DNA of 12,039 nt from Nitrospira sp. Lineage in GTDB: Bacteria; Nitrospirota; Nitrospiria; Nitrospirales; Nitrospiraceae. The position numbers and the translations under genes are program-made. This document shows, piece by piece, positions 6,571 to 12,039 of the stretch (position 1 is its first letter; every line of letters begins with the position of its first letter). The DNA lies in contig JAIWOH010000170.1 in the NCBI GenBank assembly GCA_020216985.1, forward strand, positions 1 through 12,039, given 5' to 3'. The notes beneath the pieces were generated by a model that was not told the origin of the DNA, did not search any database, and saw only the letters and a list, made by a program, of their open reading frames with translations.

Positions 6571-8013
6571 CTACTTCAACCCCTGCCCAGCAGTCCTTGG
6601 CATGAACATCTCAAAGATGCTGGGCTCGCGCTCAGTATAGTCAGGCGGGAAGAAGTTGAATCGCCGCCACAATTCATACCACAGCGGGACGCGATTCAGA
6701 ATGACCCAGCCCAGAACCTTCGTCCCTTGCCGAACCCGTGACTGGTCGGGCCATGGTTGCGAATCTTCCGGGTCTGGTACCACCCAGAATCTAAAATTGC
6801 CTTTGCCGTCGTCGATCTGATCGACGACTCGAATGATGCCGGTCCGCGTGCCTGCCATCAATTCAGGCCACGCCGGCAAGGGGATCGCCGGAACTCCAAA
6901 GAACAGAATCTTCACCTTTCGTCCCGGTGTCAAGAGAGGAGCATCCAGCCCTTCGGCCCTCATTTCAATCGCGACGTCCTCCGCTTTGGGAGACAGTGTG
7001 ACGAGTGTCTCTCCTTGTTTGACGGTCTCCATGATGCCGATCCTTGCTTGCCTGACCACGGTCCCGTCCATCGTCGCATAGATCTTAGCTGCTTCAATAC
7101 GCCGTTGATTGTTTTGCAGACGAACCGTGACGTCCGCCAGCTCATCCGCTGCTTTCGCAGCACTTGCAACCGCCTGGTCACGAGCGGCTTCCGCCTCTAT
7201 CAATCGCTGCCATACCTCGGCAGAGACCTGATCTCGACCAAATGCCAATGCCGACCTTGCTTGTTCGGCCGCCTTTAGATTGGCCTGCGCGGCTTGCAGG
7301 GCGGCCTGTGCCGTCACCTCAGCTTGAATCGTCAACTCAAGTTCCCGTTGGGAAACCAATCCGTCCTTGACGAGCTGTCGGTGTCGATCGACGTTGAGCA
7401 GTGCGGTGGTCAAATCGATTTTGGCAGCCTCAAGCTTTTGCTGGGCTTCACGCACTCTGTTCTCCGCCTCGACCACCCTTGCGTCGGCAGAAGGAACCGC
7501 GGCTTTGACTAAGTTTCTCATTTCTCCAATCCGCTTATTTAACTGCTCGGCCCTAGCCAGAGCCGCTTCCCGTTGCTGCTGCAGGGCGATCTTTCGCTGC
7601 TCCAACAGGGAAATGAGTTCTGGCGCCATGAAATTCGGGTCATAGTCTTCAAGCTCGGCGATGAGGTCGCCTTTCTTCACCGGCATACCCTCATAAATAT
7701 GCCAAGCCTTTAGTCGACCGGTGATGCGGGATTCAATGTTTTGCGGTCGTTCATACGGCGTATAAGCCGAGACTTTCCCTGTGGCGCTGATCGTCTGCGT
7801 CCACGGGACGAACTCGACGATAATCAGTATTAGAAGAAGAATAGTTAACGTCACCCGTGAAGAGCCGAGTAAACTTCTTGGCACTTTTACGGCCTGCCAT
7901 GATGACATATTGGCCACACTGCCCATCATGTCGACATCAACGGCCGCAATCCCTGGCCCCGGTTGTGATACCACAAGCGATCTTTCTTCTGAATTACCTT
8001 GTTGGCGAGCCAT
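6571..8013 (-). CDS. HlyD-family periplasmic adaptor (membrane fusion protein)
   Basis: A 480-residue adaptor that would link the inner-membrane ABC protein to a TolC-type outer-membrane channel. A cytosolic N-terminus of about 53 residues is followed by one transmembrane helix (about 54-70, VTLTILLLILIIVEFV). The first half of the lipoyl/barrel-sandwich domain follows (about 88-125, ending GMPVKKGDLIAELEDYDP). A long Ala/Glu/Gln-rich coiled-coil hairpin then runs from about 132 to 308. The second lipoyl half is near 310-342 (IYATMDGTVV to GETLVTLSP), and a beta-barrel region runs to the end. The start ATG 8013 has a strong GGGAGG 4 nt upstream. It lies 39 bp after the ABC gene and is the last gene before the terminator. 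The length fits type I secretion adaptors. The transported substrate is unknown. Confidence 0.9.
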   Translation of the reverse strand: MARQQGNSEERSLVVSQPGPGIAAVDVDMMGSVANMSSWQAVKVPRSLLGSSRVTLTILLLILIIVEFVPWTQTISATGKVSAYTPYERPQNIESRITGRLKAWHIYEGMPVKKGDLIAELEDYDPNFMAPELISLLEQRKIALQQQREAALARAEQLNKRIGEMRNLVKAAVPSADARVVEAENRVREAQQKLEAAKIDLTTALLNVDRHRQLVKDGLVSQRELELTIQAEVTAQAALQAAQANLKAAEQARSALAFGRDQVSAEVWQRLIEAEAARDQAVASAAKAADELADVTVRLQNNQRRIEAAKIYATMDGTVVRQARIGIMETVKQGETLVTLSPKAEDVAIEMRAEGLDAPLLTPGRKVKILFFGVPAIPLPAWPELMAGTRTGIIRVVDQIDDGKGNFRFWVVPDPEDSQPWPDQSRVRQGTKVLGWVILNRVPLWYELWRRFNFFPPDYTEREPSIFEMFMPRTAGQGLK

Positions 8014-8052: not shown

Positions 8053-9729
8053 TTACATATGGGCATGATGCAGCATCACACGACGATCGGCATGATCCGT
8101 CAAGTTGGGATCAGTGGACACAAAAATCACCGACCATGGTTCTTCTTTTGCACAGAGTCGACGCAAGATCCTCTCCCTCAGCGAGGGCTCAAGACTGTGA
8201 ATCAGACCGTCGAAGATCAGGACTTGAGGCCGACCAAGAATAGCCCTGGCAAGGAGGATTTGGACGGCATGACTTGGCGAAATGGCTTCGCCCAGTTCCG
8301 AGATATCCGATTTGATGCCTTGAGGAAGGACATCGATATCTTCTTCGAGTTCTGTAAACCGGAGCGCCCATATGATGTCGTCATACGTAACGTAGGATCG
8401 TCCGAGCACGATATTGTCTTCTATGGTCCCTTTCAACAGAGAAAGCTGAGAATCAATCATGACGCTCCGACATTGACTGAGGACGGTGGGATCGATGTAT
8501 CGCAAATCAACCCCGTTATATTGGACAACACCGCTGGTCGGCGCCTCCAACCCGCCCAGCACCCTGGCCAACGCCGTTTTGGCCGTAGTGGTACGGGCAT
8601 AAATCCCAAGCTTTTCTCCCGGAGCGACATCCAAATTGAAACCATCAAACACGGACGCGCCGTCATGAACCAGCCCCACGCTTTTGCAGGTGACTCGGAT
8701 CCCCTCGTTCAGATGCGCGGGCAATGCGACCGTCGACGCGGCGGGGAGCGGATCACGCTGAAGCGAGAAGAAATCGCTCAGTTCCATGACGGCCGTGAAG
8801 AAATAATACACGTGGCCCATGTTTTTGATCAGCGAGTCGAAATTCAGCACCAGCGCGCCAACCACCACTTCGGCCGCCACTAACTGCCCAAGGGTCATTT
8901 GCCCCTGCGCCATCAGCCATCCGGCAAGCGCCAATGCACCGGCTTGCGCGACGGCTTGTCCGGAGACAGAACCGATATATTGACGCAACAAGACCCGAAT
9001 TCTCGCCTTTCGAGTTTCGGTGTAGCGGTTAACAAGTTGGTCGGTCTTCTGCATGATCCAGGCAGAACTGTCTGTTGCCTTCAACTGCAGAATATTGCGC
9101 GAGATATCCTGCATCCAATCGAAGACCTCATACTTAGCCTCGGCCATATCCATCGTCGTCCGCAACGCGCCGCGGGAAAGAACAAAAAATGTGATGGCAA
9201 AGCCGACCATCAGCAACATGTCGTACACAAGAAAATAAGGGTGATAAATCACCAGCAGGACCATGCCTACCGTCCCGCCCACGACGACGTTCACCAAGTC
9301 GATGAGGAGCGTGGATAAAGCACGCTGCATGAACACGATCTCAATAAAGCGGTTGGCCGCTTCAGGCCTAAAGCCTTGGAAGCGATAGCGCGGAAGCTGT
9401 TGAGCCATGGCAATGGCCACCCTGGCAAAGATCCGCCGCTGGACGATTTCAACCGCATAGAAGTGGAACGTCTTGAACATGCCGACGAACAGCAAGACCG
9501 CCAGCATGATGCCGGTCAACGTCCAAATCATCACAGGCTGAACAGCATAAGAGAAGGTGCTGACGAGCTCTTGAACCGTTAAGGGGACGATAAGGGAGAA
9601 CAGTCCAATCGCGAGAGCATAGGCCAGGATAACGGTGAGCAATTTTTTCTCGACACGCGACCCTACAGAGAGCTGTCTCATCAGTGCTTGAAACAAGTTC
9701 GGATAGCTTGAACCGTAAGGCTCTTTCAT
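8053..9729 (-). CDS. ABC exporter, fused permease and degenerate nucleotide-binding domain
   Basis: A 558-residue inner-membrane protein with a six-helix exporter permease (about 30-310) joined to a nucleotide-binding domain (about 345-558). There is no N-terminal C39 peptidase domain. The ATPase domain is recognisable along its length (GEKLGI before Walker A, GTIEDNI, LLARAILGRPQVLIFD, HADRR near the end) but its catalytic motifs are altered. Walker A reads ARTTTAKTA (378-386) instead of GxxGxGKST, keeping only Lys384. The signature LSGGQ is ISPSH (483-487). The residue after Walker B Asp507 is Gly508 instead of Glu. The D-loop SALD is HSLE (511-514). The H-loop His is Thr539. The Q-loop Gln is shifted or lost (S427-Q428). 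No frameshift or stop interrupts the frame. ATG 9729 is chosen because AGGGGG lies 5 nt upstream; GTG 9780 has no such site. Probably a pseudo-ATPase subunit of the export system, or one half of a heterodimer. Confidence 0.88.
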   Translation of the reverse strand: MKEPYGSSYPNLFQALMRQLSVGSRVEKKLLTVILAYALAIGLFSLIVPLTVQELVSTFSYAVQPVMIWTLTGIMLAVLLFVGMFKTFHFYAVEIVQRRIFARVAIAMAQQLPRYRFQGFRPEAANRFIEIVFMQRALSTLLIDLVNVVVGGTVGMVLLVIYHPYFLVYDMLLMVGFAITFFVLSRGALRTTMDMAEAKYEVFDWMQDISRNILQLKATDSSAWIMQKTDQLVNRYTETRKARIRVLLRQYIGSVSGQAVAQAGALALAGWLMAQGQMTLGQLVAAEVVVGALVLNFDSLIKNMGHVYYFFTAVMELSDFFSLQRDPLPAASTVALPAHLNEGIRVTCKSVGLVHDGASVFDGFNLDVAPGEKLGIYARTTTAKTALARVLGGLEAPTSGVVQYNGVDLRYIDPTVLSQCRSVMIDSQLSLLKGTIEDNIVLGRSYVTYDDIIWALRFTELEEDIDVLPQGIKSDISELGEAISPSHAVQILLARAILGRPQVLIFDGLIHSLEPSLRERILRRLCAKEEPWSVIFVSTDPNLTDHADRRVMLHHAHM

Positions 9730-9775: not shown

Positions 9776-9783
9776 CACACCCT

Positions 9784-11382
9784 TTAATCACGTCCCTGCA
9801 GCTTTCGGCCCGACAAACCGGCCGCGGTGGCAGGATCACCGTATTTCGCCAAAATGCTATCGGGCACAGGCTTCGACAGCGCCCCCTTGGCCCATAAATA
9901 GCCTCCCCGTGCCAAGTCATAATCGTATTGTGCCTGATACAGCTCGTAAGCAGCCTCGACGGCATTCCGCTCTCGCAGATTCACGAACAAGAGACTGGTT
10001 ACACCCATGTCGAATCGCTTCTGCTCACCGGCCAACAAAGTCTGCGCCAATTGATACGCTTCTCTGGCCGCTTTCACCCGGTCCCTGGCCCGCACGATGG
10101 CGGACACCCAGTTATCAACGTCGAGGCTGACTTTTTGCTCGGCATTCCACAGGTCATACGTCAGTCGTTCTTGCTCGGCCTCTGCATGGGCCACCTTGCC
10201 ACGGGCTTCTCGGTTGAACAACGGCATGCTGAGTACGGTTCCTACCCGGTAGCCGAATCCTCCAATCCAGTAGATACCCCCCACCGATCGCCCGCCCTCA
10301 ACCGTCAGCTTAGGAAGCAGTTTGTTCTTGGCCAGTTTGAGATCAATGTTGTTCATCCGAACGTCGATCGCCAGCTTGCGCACTTCCGGGCGGTCTTCCT
10401 TAGCTGCAACTTTGGCCTCGACGATTTCATCTTCAGTCGGCAAGGGTGTTTCCCCCCCGAACTCCGGCGCCCACTCAGGCAGAGGAGTAATCGGTTCCTC
10501 CTTTTCCCAAAGGAATAGAGACAGTTTGTACTGTTCATATTCCAATTTTCGTTGAGCGGCAATGGCGGCCTCGCGCCGTCGCTGGACTTCTTGACCTGCC
10601 TCAACGACATCGAGCGGTGACACCAGCCCCGCCTTTGCTTTCCCCTCAATGAACACAAGGCGATCCTCCGCGACCCGCAGAGCCTGTTTTTGAACCTCGG
10701 CCTGCTTGACCGCCAACTGCCAATCCCAGTACTGCACGGCCCCGGCCAAGAACAGATCTTGCCGCGTCTGCGCAACTTTGACCTCAGCTAACGGTCCAGC
10801 CAGTTCGGCCTGCTGGAACTCGGCGAACTCATCGTTGATCATGAAGCCGCGCAGCAGATTGAATTCTCCGCCAAAGATGGCCATTTGATTTGGATAAAAA
10901 AGTTCGAGATCCTCAGGGAACGCCACTGGTCCTCCATGCGGAGAACGAGAAATAGCCCCTGAACTCGAGACGGTCGCACGATCTCCAAAACCGTGACGGA
11001 TACCGCCGAAAATATTGAACCCATAGGGGTGCCCAATCTTGAGCATGGTATCGCTATAACCAGCCACCAGGGTATTCGGCACACCTTGTACGTTCGTCAG
11101 GTTCCACGTTTGAAACCGGTCGACTTCGACCTCGTTTCGCAATTTCGGCTCCCAGGCCCCCAGCGCCTTCAAGATCTTCGCTCGAGCCTGCGCCCGTTCC
11201 AATCCAGTCGCTCGAATCAATGGATGAGTCAACTCAATCCTGGCCAGCACCTCTTCAATGGTCAGTGGAGCGGTTCGTATCGGAGCCTGCTTCGATGATC
11301 CCATGACCGTTGGCGCTTCCGCCAAGACGGTCACCGGTATCCAGACCAACGAGACTAATAACGCTACCAACAAAGCGATCAC
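9784..11382 (-). CDS. TolC-family outer-membrane efflux protein
   Basis: A 532-residue outer-membrane channel, somewhat longer than typical TolC (about 430-490). A signal peptide is visible (hydrophobic 2-20, cleavage likely after VLA at 21). The mature protein starts with a linker and then the first outer-membrane-efflux repeat (LTIEEVLARIELTHPLIRAT near 40-59). Coiled-coil stretches rich in Ala, Glu and Gln lie at about 185-290 and 395-500. The second repeat holds KRFDMGVTSLLFVNLRERNAVEAA (455-478), the family's C-terminal helix pattern. The start is GTG 11382, with AAAGGAG 9 nt upstream; no better start precedes it. It follows a paralogue by 25 bp and precedes the ABC and HlyD-type genes, so it should be the outer-membrane part of this exporter. 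Insert-like Gly-rich segments at 120-150 differ from standard TolC. Confidence 0.9.
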   Translation of the reverse strand: MIALLVALLVSLVWIPVTVLAEAPTVMGSSKQAPIRTAPLTIEEVLARIELTHPLIRATGLERAQARAKILKALGAWEPKLRNEVEVDRFQTWNLTNVQGVPNTLVAGYSDTMLKIGHPYGFNIFGGIRHGFGDRATVSSSGAISRSPHGGPVAFPEDLELFYPNQMAIFGGEFNLLRGFMINDEFAEFQQAELAGPLAEVKVAQTRQDLFLAGAVQYWDWQLAVKQAEVQKQALRVAEDRLVFIEGKAKAGLVSPLDVVEAGQEVQRRREAAIAAQRKLEYEQYKLSLFLWEKEEPITPLPEWAPEFGGETPLPTEDEIVEAKVAAKEDRPEVRKLAIDVRMNNIDLKLAKNKLLPKLTVEGGRSVGGIYWIGGFGYRVGTVLSMPLFNREARGKVAHAEAEQERLTYDLWNAEQKVSLDVDNWVSAIVRARDRVKAAREAYQLAQTLLAGEQKRFDMGVTSLLFVNLRERNAVEAAYELYQAQYDYDLARGGYLWAKGALSKPVPDSILAKYGDPATAAGLSGRKLQGRD

Positions 11383-11407: not shown

Positions 11408-12039
11408 TTAATCGCGCCCCGGTTGTTTGTAACCGTTCTTACCCGCCGCCGTCAGCGGATCTCCGTATTTCGCCAACACCGTATCCCCTACCGGCTTCGA
11501 CAAGGCCCCCCTCGCCAAGAGCAGGCCGCCTCGCGCCAAATCATAATCGTACCGCGCTTGATAGAGTTCAAACGCCGCCTCGACGGCATTCTGTTCTCGC
11601 AAATTCACGAATAAAATGCTGGAGATTCCCATATCGAATCGTTTTCTCTCGCCCTCTTCCAGAGCCTTGGCCAGTCGATAGGCTTCTGTCGCCGCTCGTA
11701 CCCGATCTCGAGCCCGAACGATCGCCGAGAGCCAGTTGTCCACATCGATACTCACTTGCTGTTCGGCATACACCTGGCTCAAGACCAACCGTTGTTGCTC
11801 CGCCTCCGCATACAAGACTTTCCCTCGGCCCTCCCGTTGGAAGAGCGGCATGGCAAACTGTGTCGCATAGCGATATCCCACGCCTACGATCCAGTCCGCA
11901 GGCGCATCCATCCGCCCTCCCTCAAAATCAAATTTGGGAAGCAAGTAGTTCTTAGCCAGTTTGAGATCGATGTTGTTCATCTTGGCTTCAATGTACAGCG
12001 CTCGCACTTCCGGCCGATCTTCCTTCGCCTCAACTTTAT
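11408..12039 (-). CDS. TolC-family outer-membrane efflux protein, N-terminal part missing at window edge
   Basis: The frame is open through the right edge (codons beyond 12007 read KVEAKEDRPEVR, matching the neighbour), so the gene continues outside the window and about 210 C-terminal residues are seen. It is clearly paralogous to the gene at 9784-11382. Shared stretches include MNNIDLKLAKN, SAIVRARDRV, KRFDMG, LFVNLRE, NAVEAA, YDYDLARGG, GALSKPV, LAKYGDP and the terminal GRD. By eye roughly two thirds of the aligned residues are identical. It would be a second outer-membrane channel in the same operon. The internal ATG at 12007 is not the start. Confidence 0.9.
   Translation of the reverse strand, partial: KVEAKEDRPEVRALYIEAKMNNIDLKLAKNYLLPKFDFEGGRMDAPADWIVGVGYRYATQFAMPLFQREGRGKVLYAEAEQQRLVLSQVYAEQQVSIDVDNWLSAIVRARDRVRAATEAYRLAKALEEGERKRFDMGISSILFVNLREQNAVEAAFELYQARYDYDLARGGLLLARGALSKPVGDTVLAKYGDPLTAAGKNGYKQPGRD

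Follow-up and report, generated by a model that had tools for sequence, protein, structure and literature searches.

We found that the stretch of Nitrospira DNA analyzed here (the window, 12,039 bases, which make up the entire contig G000:C33) encodes an ABC exporter-like protein, ABC*, whose ATPase domain has lost its catalytic motifs. With slightly better than even confidence, we read ABC* as what would be the inner-membrane part of a tripartite HlyD-TolC conduit, derived from a type IV ABC exporter and not run on ATP hydrolysis. Hydrolysis of ATP is what defines an ABC transporter, and the textbook HlyD-TolC export systems are driven by ATP hydrolysis or by MFS or RND pumps; proteins that combine an ABC fold with HlyD and TolC but have no canonical ATPase site would thus form a tripartite class of their own, with a nonstandard energy source. 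Judged by sequence, no member that we examined has a canonical hydrolytic site, and the transmembrane domain (TMD) is the constant part of the protein, outliving the nucleotide-binding domain (NBD) in one clade. Given that key catalytic parts are lacking in every relative examined, and that the whole domain is absent in one branch, the pump probably works without burning ATP. Because our homologue lists give the best 120 of each search, "the family" here means the members examined.

The ABC* reading frame runs uninterrupted from an ATG at position 9729 to a stop at 8053-8055. An alternative GTG at 9780 would give a protein of 575 amino acids (aa); relatives in the window's group have an ATG where the shorter start sits. 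As the sequence-only reading had held, both folds are recognizable: the NBD matches the Pfam model ABC_tran at 34.6 bits (cutoff, 25), and the N-terminal half, which gave no match to Pfam ABC_membrane, is a type IV exporter TMD by fold. Since full-chain rmsd values between the window protein and solved exporters are large (6 to 17 Å), we take this structural match as evidence of fold only. The protein has the layout of a type IV ABC exporter, a six-helix TMD followed by an ABC ATPase fold, and by sequence it lacks the hydrolytic site, built from Walker A, LSGGQ, catalytic Glu, and switch His, that marks a transporter driven by ATP. The motifs read earlier from the letters (ARTTTAKT, ISPSH, Gly508, HSLE, and Thr539) were all found as quoted (Table 1). 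The accompanying statement that every motif is changed is slightly too strong, as Lys384/Thr385, Asp507, and Gln428 are retained.

Table 1. Positions of the features discussed, in window coordinates unless a locus is named
Feature	Position	Strand	Remark
Second TolC-type gene	11408..12037	-	Cut by contig end; 1 to 3 tandem TolC genes in relatives
TolC-type outer-membrane protein	9784..11382	-	54 bases upstream of ABC* ATG; OEP, E 7.5e-40
ABC* gene, type IV ABC exporter fold (TMD plus degenerate NBD)	8053..9729	-	558 aa
Transmembrane domain, residues 12-321	8767..9696	-	AF2 helices; fold match to TAP/TM287-288/TmrAB
Putative first coupling loop, residues 112-121	9367..9396	-	Leu112/Pro113 eroded in NBD-less clade
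His163	9241..9243	-	35/35 degenerate versus 0/29 intact rows
Trp205	9115..9117	-	35/35 degenerate versus 0/29 intact rows
Putative coupling helix 2, residues 213-218 (Lys217)	9076..9093	-	Eroded in NBD-less clade
Gln250	8980..8982	-	35/35 degenerate versus 0/29 intact rows
Glu287	8869..8871	-	35/35 degenerate versus 0/29 intact rows
Degenerate nucleotide-binding domain, residues 340-558	8056..8712	-	
Walker A position, ARTTTAKT (378-385)	8575..8598	-	Glycines lost, Lys384/Thr385 kept
Q-loop, DSQ	8446..8454	-	Gln428 kept in window protein
Signature position, ISPSH (483-487)	8269..8283	-	In place of LSGGQ
Walker B, VLIFDG	8206..8223	-	Asp507 kept, catalytic Glu replaced by Gly508
D-loop position, HSLE (511-514)	8188..8199	-	
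Switch position, STDP for S-H	8107..8118	-	Thr539
HlyD-type periplasmic adaptor	6571..8013	-	480 aa; 39 bases downstream of ABC*
DabB/DabA-type genes directly after NBD-less gene	L066 1231-7444; L065 5504-11731; L244 9167-15385		
Tandem pair of family members	L147 5893-9483; also L148-L156, L158, L161, L162		L156 first copy in two frames

Among 59 near genomes, family members occur in 33 of 35 from the same genus (the window's own counted; absent from G021 and G029) and in 6 of 24 from the same order. Phylum-wide, 132 of 395 genomes matched at an E value of 1e-30; 21 of these (E 1e-30 to 1e-33) were, judged by E value, generic ABC matches, leaving 111 (counted by eye), all in the window's order. 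Most of the loci with names belong to Nitrospira, among them N. defluvii, N. moscoviensis, and N. lenta (best 80 of 163), and among the matches listed in the protein search the names add Nitrospinota. Annotated records call members "ABC transporter ATP-binding protein" or "ABC transporter transmembrane domain-containing protein," and a search of the openly licensed PMC literature found no description of this family.

The losses recur throughout these relatives. Our database alignment held 240 proteins (among the matches listed) plus the query, with 223 full-length rows covering the NBD columns, from Nitrospirota and Nitrospinota; the locus alignment reduced 173 matching open reading frames to 129 distinct ones plus the query, with 124 such rows. 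The sequence-only reading had asked whether the same substitutions are fixed in orthologues; in the database alignment the position of the catalytic Glu is Gly in 223/223 rows, and the switch position is never His (Thr in 120, Asn in 94, Ile in 7, and Met in 2). The Walker A Lys position in these 223 rows is Lys in 114 and Arg in 102, a D-loop His is present in 214, and neither SGG[QE] nor a canonical Walker A was found among the 240 proteins listed. The locus alignment has Gly (122 rows) or Ser (2 rows) after the Walker B Asp and a catalytic Glu in 0/124; its first Walker A Gly position holds Ala, Thr, Ser, Val, or Cys; and both the D-loop His and an Asp-Pro after the lost switch His stand in 124/124. 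The A-loop aromatic is lost in 15 of the 16 Nitrospirota/Nitrospinota rows shown. New conserved motifs have thus taken the place of the lost ones. Orthologues with intact motifs, which the earlier reading had named as its refutation, were sought, and none appeared among the members examined.

Nitrospirota and Nitrospinota include groups known for nitrite oxidation, whose organisms are central to the nitrogen cycle. Three Nitrospinota members (P0190, P0203, and P0236) carry the same losses, and the losses are perhaps a shared trait of nitrite-oxidizing groups. TIGR03479, used as a proxy for nitrite oxidation, matched 15 of 395 genomes, all outside the window's order, and apparently does not recognize the Nitrospira enzyme, which makes this count uninformative about such a link.

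We then considered how selection acts on the degenerate domain, using a simple Nei-Gojobori count. Among 14 orthologues from the window's group, dN/dS had a median of 0.049 and a maximum of 0.10 for the NBD (37 pairs) and was 0.099 for the TMD (45 pairs), these values coming from nonindependent pairs with dS of 0.1 to 1.2, near 1.2. The controls were intact exporters of ~730 aa from the same 14 genomes (18 regions fetched, 15 with an intact frame by pattern, L226, L232, and L233 being excluded, and 14 used, matched to the 14 orthologues); these gave 0.084 for the NBD (43 pairs) and 0.056 for the TMD (49 pairs), and the NBD/TMD ratio of dN was 0.81 in the window's group versus 1.17 in the controls. 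Relaxed selection on the NBD is therefore the wrong account of the window's group, where the NBD evolves more slowly than the TMD, the reverse of the intact controls. This slower rate implies that the NBD is not dispensable in that group, and the comparison with the controls indicates that selection maintains the degenerate domain with a constraint no looser than that on a functional NBD. Taken together, the shared losses and the purifying selection on the NBD lend support to the earlier proposal of selection for a nonhydrolyzing ATPase domain.

These results also bear on whether ABC* is simply a decaying pseudogene or a sequencing error. Broken copies do occur: one locus has an internal TAA (L061), another is split and has an ambiguous residue (L068), the copy in G400 is a fragment with two stops, and the first copy in L156 lies in two frames. 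Relatives at 98 to 99% in G008 and G009 have motifs identical to those in the window, and more distant full-length relatives share the losses, so the window's motifs are no sequencing error. With the window frame uninterrupted and purifying selection strong, decay or error is exceedingly improbable for ABC*, and for the family it is refuted by motif conservation and dN/dS.

The claim that ABC* continues to work alongside its HlyD-type and TolC-type neighbors gains from the operon context retained across relatives. Of the flanked Nitrospirales loci, 43/50 have HlyD and 44/50 have TolC, and the type I secretion gene set of ABC, HlyD, and TolC is present together; in 6/50 (L059-L064, the last a 3.5-kb contig) no HlyD or TolC gene was detected nearby. 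In most window-group loci with enough flank (for example, L070 3268-7994), three tandem TolC-type genes precede one ABC* gene. The remaining window genes look ordinary: purK, purE, and genes for a rhomboid protease, a LOG-family protein, and CBS and DHHA1-type proteins, the DHHA1 match scoring below its cutoff.

Other genes recur around the operon. Homologues of an arginase-family gene (L072 361-1293) are found in 27/54 loci, and in one group (9/54 loci) an extra gene with a four-helix-bundle sensor domain directly follows the ABC* gene or genes (L042 7196-8005; L147 9554-10345). An NhaR-type LysR regulator has homologues in 26/54 loci (for example, L072 2069-2968, L066 12091-13011, and L048 11897-12814); three that we tested scored 245, 222, and 230 bits, all passing the NhaR cutoff of 219, and two sphingomonad regulators proved OxyR-like instead, below the cutoff. 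DabA occurs in 4/54 loci; L055 and the Sphingobium locus L254 also carry it beside the operon, and in Sphingobium (plasmid pHAL16) it lies directly upstream of the family member. A CPA2-type Na/H exchanger in 2/54 loci (L060 6766-7974; L062 6823-7974) starts ~20 bases after an orphan family member with no HlyD or TolC gene detected nearby. These neighbors hint at ion or carbon homeostasis, though they vary by clade.

One could accordingly suppose that the TMD-HlyD-TolC set does not transport at all and instead senses or serves as a scaffold, possibly in connection with the homeostasis of ions or inorganic carbon. The NhaR-type regulators (three tested by family), the exchanger beside L060 and L062, the DabA gene upstream of the Sphingobium member, and the DabA and DabB genes beside all three NBD-less loci described below are in keeping with this idea, but TolC and HlyD are conduit proteins, the DabA and exchanger links differ by clade, and neighborhood is weak evidence. 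We regard a nontransport role as very doubtful.

The sequence-only reading had left two roles for the domain, an ATP-independent scaffold or gate and the silent half of a heterodimer whose active partner lies outside the window. Known heterodimers do have one degenerate site, as described in a review of degenerate sites (PMC7756269), and intact exporters exist elsewhere in the same genomes as family members. Near the family genes, however, the flanks of 131 partly overlapping loci (many genomes counted twice; at most ~8 kb of flank) showed no intact ABC gene of the exporter type. A relaxed pattern gave two matches in these loci, 329-aa ATPase frames ~4 kb away in L056 and L057, and a stricter intact-ABC pattern gave none in 130 loci; within these flanks we reject a neighboring active partner. 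The paralogue most similar to ABC* in the window's own genome (C153, 55%) is likewise rejected as an intact partner, its motifs being equally degenerate. The N. defluvii group has 13 loci with two adjacent family members, both degenerate. Known degenerate halves usually keep more motifs, which also counts against the silent-half reading. A partner encoded elsewhere in the genome is unlikely, and a silent half completed in that way is, in our estimate, improbable. The scaffold or gate role is favored over the silent half because there is no intact neighbor, because both N. defluvii copies are degenerate, and because one clade has no NBD.

The family reaches beyond Nitrospirota and Nitrospinota. 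A tblastn search of 72,556 plasmids with an NBD-less protein returned 22 records, all from Sphingomonadales or Bacteroidota genera (25 to 31% identity in the 15 matches listed of 22), and a second search with an Aureibacter protein returned 27. From both searches we took 16 plasmid regions; 10/10 annotated family loci have the ABC gene, an HlyD-type adaptor, and TolC (the adaptor of L254 being annotated as a biotin/lipoyl-binding protein), and L253, L255, L262, and L263 carry no annotation. A Sphingopyxis plasmid copy (L256 4001-5296) is truncated beside an IS3-family transposase. Two Persicobacter members (L255 3476-5671; L262 4545-6728) have an N-terminal extension of ~150 aa, presumably in the position where HlyB has its C39-like domain. 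All 14 full plasmid rows, Bacteroidota and alphaproteobacterial, are degenerate, in differing ways: sphingomonad plasmid rows read, for example, APGVER / LSVGE / LSPLYD, and a Riemerella row reads GDTASGKS / LPYST / LLKEP, versus GESGSGKS / LSGGE / ILDEATSSLD / SHR in the intact outgroup control (L264) of the same alignment. In a TMD tree, a single branch separates 35 degenerate rows from 29 intact exporters (support, 100/99; all 200 bootstrap trees), with the intact outgroups on long branches and a long-branch warning from the tree tool. The family spans at least four phyla.

The branches differ in how far the degeneration has gone. A further profile search matched 3,249 proteins, and in the best 120 (most without an organism name, the named ones Bacteroidota) Walker A is kept in 117/120 and the catalytic position is acidic in 114/120 (Asp in 98, Glu in 16). 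Within the same best 120 of 3,249, the Walker B Asp is replaced by Glu in 96, giving a Glu-Asp pair in 79, and LSGG[QE], a D-E Walker B, and a switch His are each found in 0/120; the A-loop aromatic is present in 10 of the 12 Bacteroidota-type rows shown. These counts indicate that degeneration has gone less far here than in the window's branch, and by sequence these members may bind ATP and perhaps retain residual hydrolysis. The conduit could then be regulated by nucleotide: ATP or another nucleotide would be bound as a ligand or glue that sets the gate, and its hydrolysis would be slow or absent. The Bacteroidota-type motifs speak for this possibility, as does the fact that Nitrospirales members mostly keep the Walker A Lys/Arg and the Walker B Asp; ATP as a permanent glue in degenerate sites has been suggested in the accessible part of one paper (PMC7756269). 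Set against this, Nitrospirota and Nitrospinota members are without the Walker A glycines and nearly all those shown are without the A-loop aromatic, in Sphingomonadales rows the Walker A Lys and the Walker B Asp are gone as well, and one clade has no NBD. We consider nucleotide regulation rather unlikely as an account of the family; the window's group may still have an atypical or trans-complemented nucleotide role.

In that last clade, three genomes (G054, G056, and G377) encode proteins of 337 to 346 aa that end after the TMD, and among the matches listed, 13 database clusters (329 to 346 aa) have the same form, four of them on contigs of >2.1 Mb. In the TMD tree the 14 NBD-less rows group as a single clade (100/99) that arises from within the degenerate members with an NBD. 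Five short proteins outside this clade (P0140, P0146, P0202, P0230, and P0148) are possible fragments and were not counted as losses; a tree including P0140, P0146, and P0202 requires four changes of the "short" label. The three NBD-less loci still have the operon order HlyD-TolC-TMD, followed by DabB- and DabA-type genes (Table 1); the HlyD frame of G377 has its first start codon late in the frame (373 aa).

At a threshold of 90%, 72 full-length rows share 93 conserved TMD columns, and the NBD-less rows have lost four of them (112, 113, 217, and 312), three of which lie in the two putative coupling loops. When the TMD was scored in 15-residue blocks, residues 211-225 were the one block whose match collapses in NBD-less rows, from 0.68 to 0.28. 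In the AF2 model of the window protein, a short helix of its own is made up of residues 213-218, at what we take to be the expected place of coupling helix 2. In P0134, the first-branching NBD-less row, the loop still looks intact. By sequence, this pattern is as one would expect if the NBD had gone first and the site where it docks had been lost afterward. NBD-less genes have dN/dS values of 0.23 to 0.29 (three pairs) and so are still constrained, less tightly; the predicted structure of an NBD-less protein has a mean pLDDT of 50, too low for use.

Four TMD residues set the family apart from intact exporters (Table 1). Among the matches listed, His163 and Gln250 are present in 240/240 relatives and 120/120 Bacteroidota-type proteins, Trp205 in 237/240 and 120/120, and Glu287 in 229/240 (Gln in the other 11) and 120/120. 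Two of them, His163 and Glu287, which none of the compared intact exporters has, are candidate residues of a protonatable switch, although an obligatory proton role for Glu287 is weakened by the Gln in 11/240 relatives and also in L086.

How might such a conduit work? In our preferred reading of a conduit not run on ATP hydrolysis, the NBD would remain docked via the coupling helices, with a structural or regulatory part to play; an ion gradient or the adaptor would make the TMD dimer open and close, or simply gate it; and cargo would pass from the TMD to HlyD and TolC. Drive by a gradient is a tentative version of this reading, and a gated passive conduit or scaffold is a rather doubtful one. 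We also tentatively suggest that the family could be a second case, independent of the first, in which an exporter driven by ATP became a transporter driven by a gradient, here within an HlyD-TolC conduit and with its stages kept across phyla. The stages would run from Walker A kept with signature and switch gone (Bacteroidota), through loss of the Walker A glycines with the NBD fixed as a structural module (Nitrospirota and Nitrospinota) and further loss (Sphingomonadales), to deletion of the NBD with eroding coupling helices (one Nitrospirales clade).

Several known systems invite comparison. The type I secretion ABC proteins (HlyB, LssB, and PrtD) and the NHLM exporters resemble ABC* in their operon with HlyD and TolC and in giving its best NCBIfam matches (TIGR03797, 131 bits; TIGR03796, 129; TIGR03375, 119). 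These scores of 119 to 131 bits stand against curated cutoffs of 693 to 853, the type I secretion ABC models fall far short (TIGR03375, 119 versus 693 bits; TIGR01842, 103 versus 510; TIGR01846, 100 versus 726), and the hydrolysis motifs are absent. Heterodimeric exporters (TM287/288, TmrAB, TAP, and MsRv1273c/72c) have one degenerate site, which the accessible part of the literature treats as paired with an active one (PMC7756269), whereas the family members examined have no canonical site and no partner gene nearby. YddA and BclA are full-length ABC relatives of an NBD-less family and, in the accessible part of the report on SbmA, are not described as lacking catalytic motifs (PMC13316013).

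The closest parallel is SbmA/BacA of the SLiPT family, which shares an ABC-type TMD and works without ATP (PMC13316013). SbmA is proton driven and has a glutamate ladder lining its cavity, and the ancestor proposed for it is an ABC transporter from which the NBD and the coupling helices were lost (PMC13316013). SbmA has no NBD, whereas most family members seen keep a degenerate one; the window protein has an NBD and retains its coupling-loop residues. SbmA is an E. coli peptide importer of the YddA line with an extra TM0, whereas this family adjoins HlyD and TolC, and the number shared by Glu287 here and E287 of SbmA is a coincidence. A profile of the NBD-less clade found no PDB sequence at an E value of 1, so kinship with SbmA is not shown by sequence; a fold search with the window protein did not return SbmA among the 50 matches listed, which is uninformative either way. 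The two SbmA-type losses, of the NBD and of the coupling loops, are nonetheless both seen in the family, in the 14-row NBD-less clade only. The SbmA work, in its accessible part, proposes that secondary transporters arise by NBD loss (PMC13316013), and this route is testable here because living lineages of the family preserve both intermediates with a degenerate NBD and an end point with none. If the conversion that we tentatively propose is true, the family would be a natural series for a primary transporter becoming a secondary one.
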